Positions 24,614 through 27,600 of a DNA stretch of 64,000 nucleotides are shown here, piece by piece. The translations under genes and the position numbers were made by a program. The stretch covers positions 11,237,001-11,301,000 of the forward strand of contig NC_135364.1 in NCBI RefSeq assembly GCF_051622035.1. The letters are read 5' to 3'. This DNA is from Arctopsyche grandis (taxonomy: Eukaryota; Arthropoda; Insecta; Trichoptera; Hydropsychidae). The notes beneath the pieces were generated by a model. That model was not told where the DNA came from and did not search any database. It saw nothing but the letters and a program-made list of their open reading frames with translations. Numbering within the stretch: position 1 is the first letter of the stretch; every line of letters starts with the position of its first letter.

Positions 24614-27600
24614 ATGACAAAAAAATTCGAATTCTATTGGCAAATACCAGTACCGGAGCCACTTCTACAGGTAAGCTTCACTATGATTCTAATAAATCAT
24701 AAATAAATTGTTTTTATCATTGTATAATTTATTTTTAAAGGGTGCCACGTTCGACCGTTGGAATGAAGACAAAGATAACACTGATTATGAAACAAAATGC
24801 CTGTTTAAAGTTGATGAATATGGATTCTTCATTTACTGGAAAAGCGAAGGAAAAGTAAGTCGCTTTCAATTAAAATTATCTAGAAATAAATCTCAAGTTG
24901 AAGCCCTGACCTACATAAATATTTGTTACGAGATTTGTAACTTCCGCCAACATCCGCAATACTTATTCGTTTTATCGAAAGCTATTTCGTATTTATTTAT
25001 TTATTAAATTCAATCTAGTTTACAAATGTTCAATTACACTGTTCAACACGAAAAATGGTTCAGAGACGAGATATGACTTTTCTTATAGATCTATGCCCAG
25101 TAAACACGAATCTGGTAATAAAAAATGTTAATTGGCTCGAGATTTGGAGATATGTGTTTTTTAAATCACACGATTTTTCTATATTTTGGTGTTGTTCGGT
25201 CGATGTCTCAAAATCTGTCAAATTCCTGTTCAAAATGAATATTGGAATCTATAGTCAGGTATTTTATCTTTCATTTGTAGTACTTTTCAGCTTTCAAATC
25301 TCCCTAAGTAGTCATCCAGTTCAAATCAAAAGTCAAAAGTACGTATTTTCTGTTAATACATATTTCGACTATTCTTCAAAAATTCTATTGATAACTGGCT
25401 TACCTCGATAAAATAAACGAATTTTTGTTACTAATCCACAAGAATAGTCTAAATATGATTTTTCTAAGTGGAATTTTATTTAATTCTCATATAAAGACAA
25501 TTTAATATATTATCCCTATTAATTCTATTCATATTCGTGTAAATACGAGTAAATAATAGTACGAGATGTTAACTCGCAATTTTACCGATTTAAAATTCAG
25601 CACCCTTTTAAACGAAAACAAAAAATAATGTGGCTAGAACACTATCCCAATAAACATATTTCAACAGAAAATACACAATATAAAATAGTATTAACAGTTG
25701 GAAAAAATCCCAAGTGAAAATACGTACTTTTGACTTTTGATTTGAACTGGACGACTACTTAAGAGAGATTTGAAAGCTGAAAAGTACTACAAATAAAAGA
25801 TAAAATACCCGACTATAGATTCCAATATTCATTTTGAACAGAAAATTGACAGATTTTGATACATCGACCGAACAACACCAAGATATAGAAAAATCGCGCG
25901 ATTTAAAAAACACATATATCTACGAATCTCGAGCCAATCGACATTTTTTATTACCAGGTTCGTGTTCACTGGGCATAGATCTATAAGAAAAGTCATATCT
26001 CGTCTCTGAACCAAAAACAAAGTCGTCATTTGTCGAACAGTGTTATTGACATGTTTTTATTTTTCATCAGGAAGGTGATGTCATCGAATTGTGTCAAGTT
26101 AGTGATATCCGTGCTGGAGGATTACCGAAGGTAAATAAAGATCTTATATTGTATGTTATATATTCGAATAGTATAATTATTTTACTATAAAAAATATTTT
26201 TTTATAGGATGCAAAGCTATTCTCTAACCTTCAAAATAAACATGGGGATAACTTAGAAGACAAATCACTAACTATATGCAGTGGAACGGATTATATTAAC
26301 ATCAATATGCAGCATGTAGTCTGTCCGGATGCAGCAACAGCCAAGGTAATCTTGAAACCATTATCATATTCTTAAAGTATCAATATATTTCACTTTTTTT
26401 TCAATTTGATTATATTCATCAAATTTAAATTTCATCAAATAAAAAAAAAACATTAACACTATATGTCAATGTTTCGTTATGATTTGATGGATTTATTTGA
26501 TATCAATGAATTTTGAGATATTTCTTCCAATTAGGTGTGGTTGGACGGATTGAGAAAAATAACACACAATGTGAAGGCAAACAATTTTTGTCCCATGACT
26601 TGTCTTAAGAAACAGTGAGTTTAACTTATTCTGCCGAGAGAAAAATTTGCTTTATATTGCATGTCAACTGCTTATATGTTACAGTTTATGTTTTGAATAT
26701 GCATGAAATTTTGTCTATTCAAAATTCCACTTTGCATGAAATAATGTGTTGAATTTTAAAACGAAGAGTATGTAACATGTCTTACTGAATCATACTCAGT
26801 TTTGATTATAGTTTTTTTTTTTTTACAAACATACTTACATATACATATGTAATGTATAGTTTAATTCTTAACATAACAAATTAATTACAATTAAAATTTA
26901 CTTCTTGGATTACTTTTCCAATTACATATTGTATAATTAATGCTGTAGATTTACATGGCTGTGAAATCAATGAAAAAATTGACCAGTTTTTATCAGGGCA
27001 TTAGCCGCTTTAAATATTCATAAACTTTTATAAATTCTTCAAAGTTTTGAATATTTATATAATTTTGATCACAAATGACTATTTAAAAATCTAAATTAAT
27101 TTTTAATATAATATACATATGTATAAATATATTTATCACATTATATATATATGTATATATATATTTTTTTTTTGCATGTTCTGCATTTTTTGTTAATGTT
27201 ATATATGCTTTTTTTTAAATTAATGCATGCAAATTACAATTTCTTCACAAGGCTTGGCAAGCAGGCTTACGTCTCATCACTCACAACAGTAAATTGAACA
27301 ATGTTTGTCCACGCACTAATTTAATGAAGCAGTGAGTTGTAAATACTAAAACATAATATTATAATTAGTTACTTACGGATTATACACTTTTATCAAATAA
27401 TATTGTAATTATAATATAAACTATGAACTTGCACGTTGCACGTGTACGAAAAGGCCTGTTTTTTCTTATAATTAATAATGATAATTTCAGTTGGATGCGC
27501 CTAGGATTTTTAACTGATCCTAAAGGAAAAGTCCCTGTGAAAGTTGTCGCTAGAACATTCGCTTCAGGAAAGACGGAGAAACTTGTATACCAATGTTTAT

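Follow-up and report, generated by a model that had tools for sequence, protein, structure and literature searches.

The norpA locus

The window, by which we mean the whole 64-kb stretch of DNA that was analysed, lies on contig C10 (32.6 Mb) of a 475.7 Mb genome in 189 contigs. The Drosophila norpA protein aligned piecewise over positions 24614 to 32375. Including the alternative exons A and B, 18 exons were placed up to position 31665, and the 3' exons were located only. The partial protein comprised 908 residues with either exon. Its Pfam matches above the cut-off were PH_14 (residues 13–140), the PLCB1-4-like EF hand (147–217), EF-hand_like, PI-PLC-X, PI-PLC-Y and C2, while PLC-beta_C remained below the cut-off in this model truncated at its 3' end. 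The alignment to the fly protein and the Pfam domains support a norpA-type PLC-beta, in agreement with the preliminary description of this DNA, which had named the gene norpA. The gene and the region around the exon pair consist of the following features:

24614..32529, + strand: norpA coding region, from the ATG to the stop after ...KTEFYA (end counted from the printed sequence)
26208..26345, + strand: constant exon 5' of the pair, 138 nt, ending ...ATAK; its frame joins A or B
26535..26614, + strand: exon A, 80 nt, 26 residues plus H; ancestral-like, proposed general or body form
26615..27251, + strand: intron between exons A and B, 637 nt, holding a TGCATG cluster
27252..27331, + strand: exon B, 80 nt, 26 residues plus H; resembles fly subtype I; proposed eye form
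27491..27727, + strand: constant exon 3' of the pair, 237 nt

Within norpA, the 1,107-nt intron at 30378–31484 had a GC-richer, repeat-like start (GGTTTCCCAAACTATGTTCTGCGGAACACC...; about 30400–31440 of the window), which may be the remnant of a mobile element. Downstream of the gene, positions 39858–41183 (+ strand) held one uninterrupted open frame (441 codons) that encodes three RRMs and has a GC-rich, Q/P-rich start. The nearest proteins in the PDB list were ELAV/Hu and Sex-lethal proteins, and this frame looks like a divergent, intronless gene of the ELAV family. At 59139–60338 (− strand), the encoded product had an SH3 domain ahead of a protein kinase domain, the order of mixed-lineage kinases.

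Anatomy and reading frame of the exon pair

Exons A and B were of equal size (80 nt), were both read from phase 0 and were both followed by GTGAGT. Their peptides shared 17 of 27 residues, the codon of the 27th running on into the following exon. All coordinates and counts given by the preliminary description (two consecutive 80-nt exons with a shared phase, the donor GTGAGT, 17 of 27 residues and a 637-nt intron) were exact. At the nucleotide level, 45 of 80 positions were identical, distributed over codon positions 1, 2 and 3 as 18/27, 18/27 and 9/26. Since 10 of the 16 codons for the same amino acid carried a synonymous difference, A and B appear to be an old duplicate that was kept at the protein level. 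The alignment score of B against A was 81 (89 with the spliced final H), compared with 19 for the best unrelated window among 28,230 stop-free windows of 27 residues in six frames. None of 20,000 shuffles of exon B reached 89, the highest scoring 36. Neighbouring homologous exons of similar length in one phase, as expected of a mutually exclusive pair, were thus found, and the anatomy of the exon pair in norpA is confirmed.

Each exon fitted the otherwise continuous norpA frame. Splicing A and B jointly led to a stop within B, and skipping both led to a stop after 8 codons, so that exactly one of the two gives the full-length protein. A transcript that included both exons, or that lacked both, would be out of frame and presumably subject to nonsense-mediated decay. 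The frame penalises such transcripts but does not itself prevent their production; from the frame, we infer that A and B are mutually exclusive in transcripts. With an intron of 637 nt, the splice sites are too far apart for steric exclusion, and U2/U12 incompatibility is unsupported, the norpA junctions being GT-AG. The weak AAG acceptor of exon B was considered as a regulated feature and dropped, as the exons at 24741 and 29414 also have AAG.

Encoded segment and assignment to the fly subtypes

In the fly, the norpA subtypes arise from an equal-size substitute exon, differ in residues 130–155 and are distributed between eye and body. Subtypes I and II of Drosophila norpA are reportedly the subject of Kim et al. 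1995, J Biol Chem 270:14376, and we take subtype I to be the eye form. Here, the A/B exon encoded residues 124–150 of the norpA model, that is, 17 residues at the end of the PH match, 6 between the matches and 4 at the start of the EF-hand match. Its start aligned with fly position 130. An earlier placement of the pair in the PH-region segment of fly residues ~130–155 was consistent with this start and with an exon that reaches from the end of PH into the first EF hand. The pair resembles Drosophila norpA subtypes I and II in gene, in exon position (fly residue 130), in the equal size of the alternatives and in the likeness of B to subtype I. It differs in that 10 of 27 residues are exchanged here, whereas 14 between residues 130 and 155 are exchanged in the fly.

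Of the 10 sites that distinguish A from B, fly subtype I agreed with B at 6, with A at 1 and with neither at 3. The preliminary description had likened the pair to subtypes I and II, and this resemblance of B to subtype I is in keeping with it. PLC-beta3 (PDB sequence) agreed with A at 3 sites, with B at none and with neither at 7, and vertebrate PLCB4 with A at 4, with B at 1 and with neither at 5. With the remaining query identical, the A form scored 41.4 bits against 4qj3 (PLC-beta3) and the B form 32.8. The values for A and B were 32.6 and 31 against 2fju (PLC-beta2) and 42.8 and 42.4 against 3qr0, where the best stretch begins inside or after the exon. The residue agreement and the PDB scores modestly favour an ancestral-like A and a B that resembles a derived eye form. 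Among 59 genome-contig and 32 viral-contig pattern matches, no relative of the norpA locus was confirmed.

A switch between A and B would exchange the C-terminal part of the PH domain together with the linker that leads into EF hand 1. Because it covers these parts, we propose that it should affect catalysis less than the contact with a partner or the membrane. PLC-beta4 is, we assume, the vertebrate class nearest norpA. According to passages of PMC10194004, PLC-beta3 on membranes binds one Gbeta-gamma at its PH domain and its first EF hand, and Galpha-q is the sole activator named for PLC-beta4. Gbeta-gamma binding is a possibility for what the swap alters; since PLC-beta4 is listed as Galpha-q-activated only, we do not commit to it, and the swap may tune another contact.

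TGCATG motifs in the intron between exons A and B

The strongest regulatory signal at the locus, absent from the preliminary description, was a cluster of TGCATG motifs in the 637-nt intron. It lay in two groups, with no TGCATG in the stretch between them. The motif positions were as follows, together with those of two GCACG motifs after exon B:

26658, 26700 and 26733 (26658..26738), + strand: three TGCATG, starting 44, 86 and 119 nt after exon A
27173 and 27224 (27173..27229), + strand: two TGCATG, ending 73 and 22 nt before exon B
27431 and 27438 (27431..27442), + strand: two GCACG after exon B, which would favour B, against control by Rbfox as proposed below

The intron carried 5 of the 17 sense-strand TGCATG of the 64-kb window. 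From the window, 0.16 (order 1), 0.12 (orders 2 and 3) or 0.17 (plain rate) would be expected. The intron's own composition gave expectations of 0.42 (order 1) and 0.63 (order 2); at order 3, a model to which the sites contribute, the value was 2.4. In 20,000 dinucleotide shuffles, the intron contained a mean of 0.40 TGCATG and a maximum of 4, and five were never reached. Of 63,363 placements of a 637-nt segment along the window, 66 included five TGCATG, all at this intron. The window as a whole showed no excess (33 on both strands, 33.1 expected). Neither TGCATG nor GCATG occurred in the other 16 tabulated norpA introns, and outside the cluster no sense-strand TGCATG was present from 23673 to 35888, a range that includes the rest of norpA. 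Among hexamers with at least 4 copies in the intron, TGCATG was the most confined to it, with 29% of its window copies there and 9% for the next. The flanking intron of this pair thus has an excess of UGCAUG of the kind looked for at Rbfox-regulated exons (5 against 0.12–0.17, window-based).

Triples of TGCATG with such spacing were common genome-wide, with 11,473 matches (8,271 and 3,202 by strand), compared with 131 for the pattern read backwards. By eye, the 100 of these 11,473 matches that were listed, which span C1 to the start of C13, were mostly tandem arrays. On C10, triples were rare among the matches listed: there were two, one of them in this intron. The other, G000:C10:11543316-11543398, lies ~280 kb off without a visible tandem array and is a possible second Rbfox target. 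The AT-rich part of the inter-exon intron (27051–27187 of the window) matched many places in the genome at ~73–91% identity, as a low-complexity repeat. A query over this part gave 208 genome matches in total, and in some of them the repeat edge reached the TGCATG at 27173.

Proposed control by Rbfox

As stated in PMC8742874, Drosophila and vertebrate Rbfox have the same motif, UGCAUG, whose position upstream or downstream of an exon decides between inclusion and skipping. Passages of PMC4991804 state that RBFOX sites downstream of an exon activate, that mouse photoreceptors do not express RBFOX and that the exons they use less are enriched in downstream RBFOX sites. With TGCATG after A and before B, the position rule would have A favoured and B suppressed. 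We propose that Rbfox bound to the UGCAUG cluster sets the choice: just downstream of A it would promote A, and just upstream of B it would block B. The A form would then be made in Rbfox-positive cells, and the B form where Rbfox is scarce or absent, for example in photoreceptors. Since mouse photoreceptors lack RBFOX, its absence could likewise set the eye form here. This hypothetical distribution of the two forms agrees with the eye/body pattern of the fly. The two GCACG after exon B are a possible secondary Rbfox motif.

The genome contains an Rbfox gene on contig C8, with RRM pieces 91, 85 and 75% identical to the fly RRM; the third piece (75%) has an internal stop. At one RRM exon of this gene (L009 1501–1602, minus strand), a TGCATG lies directly before the acceptor CAG, with another 18 nt upstream of it. 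A third would begin ~3 nt into the next intron, given the apparent donor GTGTGC. Vertebrate Rbfox has an autoregulated exon, which this RRM exon flanked by TGCATG resembles.

The proposed control shares the (U)GCAUG motif and an effect that depends on position with the Rbfox-regulated exons of Drosophila muscle, although the accessible text of that study (PMC8742874) contains no occurrence of norpA or photoreceptors. It is also like the mouse photoreceptor programme, in which, in the parts of PMC4991804 cited above, RBFOX sites lie downstream of exons skipped by photoreceptors and RBFOX is absent. It differs from that programme in that the latter concerns vertebrate cells in which Musashi acts, whereas Musashi-type motifs were not raised here. 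A limited literature search, which covered the alias A2bp1 only partly, found no paper with both norpA and Rbfox, and no title among those listed on norpA splicing concerned this exon pair. The main text of PMC7034979 contains none of A2bp1, Rbfox and norpA, and the accessible text of PMC5899340 has nothing on norpA exons. The exon-pair event is already known from Drosophila norpA, and the control by Rbfox that we hypothesize would be new.

Alternative explanations

That the switch is real but driven by another factor, such as a photoreceptor activator or an ELAV-type protein on the U-runs before B, with UGCAUG minor or incidental, is rather unlikely in our estimation, though the likeliest of the alternatives. 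In a comparison of 18 motif classes against 14 other norpA introns, runs of at least 7 T in the last 200 nt before B reached 30/kb, compared with 0.9/kb in those introns, and YGCT in the intron 7.8/kb compared with 1.8/kb. PTB-like and YCAY motifs were raised before exon A in the same comparison. T-runs, however, are frequent in the window (TTTTTT occurs 273 times) and partly represent ordinary 3' splice regions, Musashi-type motifs were not raised (4.7 vs 4.3 per kb), and it is TGCATG, not another hexamer, that is most confined to the intron (29% of window copies vs 9%). At the other end of the scale, we regard it as very improbable that there is no regulated switch and that only one exon matters, its duplicate being in decay or seldom used. 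Such a reading gains from the fact that A and B are known here from DNA alone. It is opposed by the state of both exons, which are open, in phase and bounded by GT-AG ends, by the concentration of their differences at third codon positions and by the different residues found in relatives that each retains. Drosophila, moreover, makes two norpA isoforms, as a passage of PMC3772025 states, citing Kim 1995.

Control by RNA pairing, with B looped out by a duplex between the inter-exon intron and the one that follows B, or with the long intron folding back on itself, seems improbable, if less so than decay of one copy. The introns flanking B formed a duplex of −59.4, against −43.9 (sd 3.6) in shuffles, of which 0 of 60 were as good; real-sequence controls reached this energy in 0 of 27 and 1 of 98 cases. 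The 637-nt intron folded at −117.5, compared with −101.0 (sd 5.2) in 40 shuffles. The duplex excess was nevertheless confined to one of four region pairs, the other three being matched by 36, 34 and 32 of 60 shuffles, no long clean helix was among the inverted repeats listed, and the intron is very AT-rich. Compared with the competing RNA structure of the Dscam type, selector/docking-like excess pairing thus appeared in one of four region pairs. Of the pairing elements that the preliminary description had envisaged in the 637-nt intron, this single excess duplex remains as a weak hint, and the three other pairs gave nothing.

Set against these alternatives, our preferred reading is that the mutually exclusive norpA pair is the counterpart of Drosophila subtypes I and II and that Rbfox on the UGCAUG cluster sets the choice, a combined claim that we hold to be evenly poised between right and wrong. 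Somewhat more tentatively, and with rather less than even confidence, we suggest that the visual form of norpA is the default without Rbfox. One intron packed with UGCAUG would promote the general exon before it and silence the eye exon after it, and insect and mouse photoreceptors would share a logic of Rbfox absence.

Significance

The pair adds another insect to the known norpA switch of the fly and points to the general exon as the ancestral-like of the two. If control by Rbfox is true, it would explain in concrete and testable terms how a central phototransduction enzyme comes to be made in its eye form, and it would tie the norpA choice to a splicing rule reported for mouse photoreceptors. 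Insect and mouse photoreceptors are different cell types, and the common splicing logic would, if the reading is true, be the absence of Rbfox.
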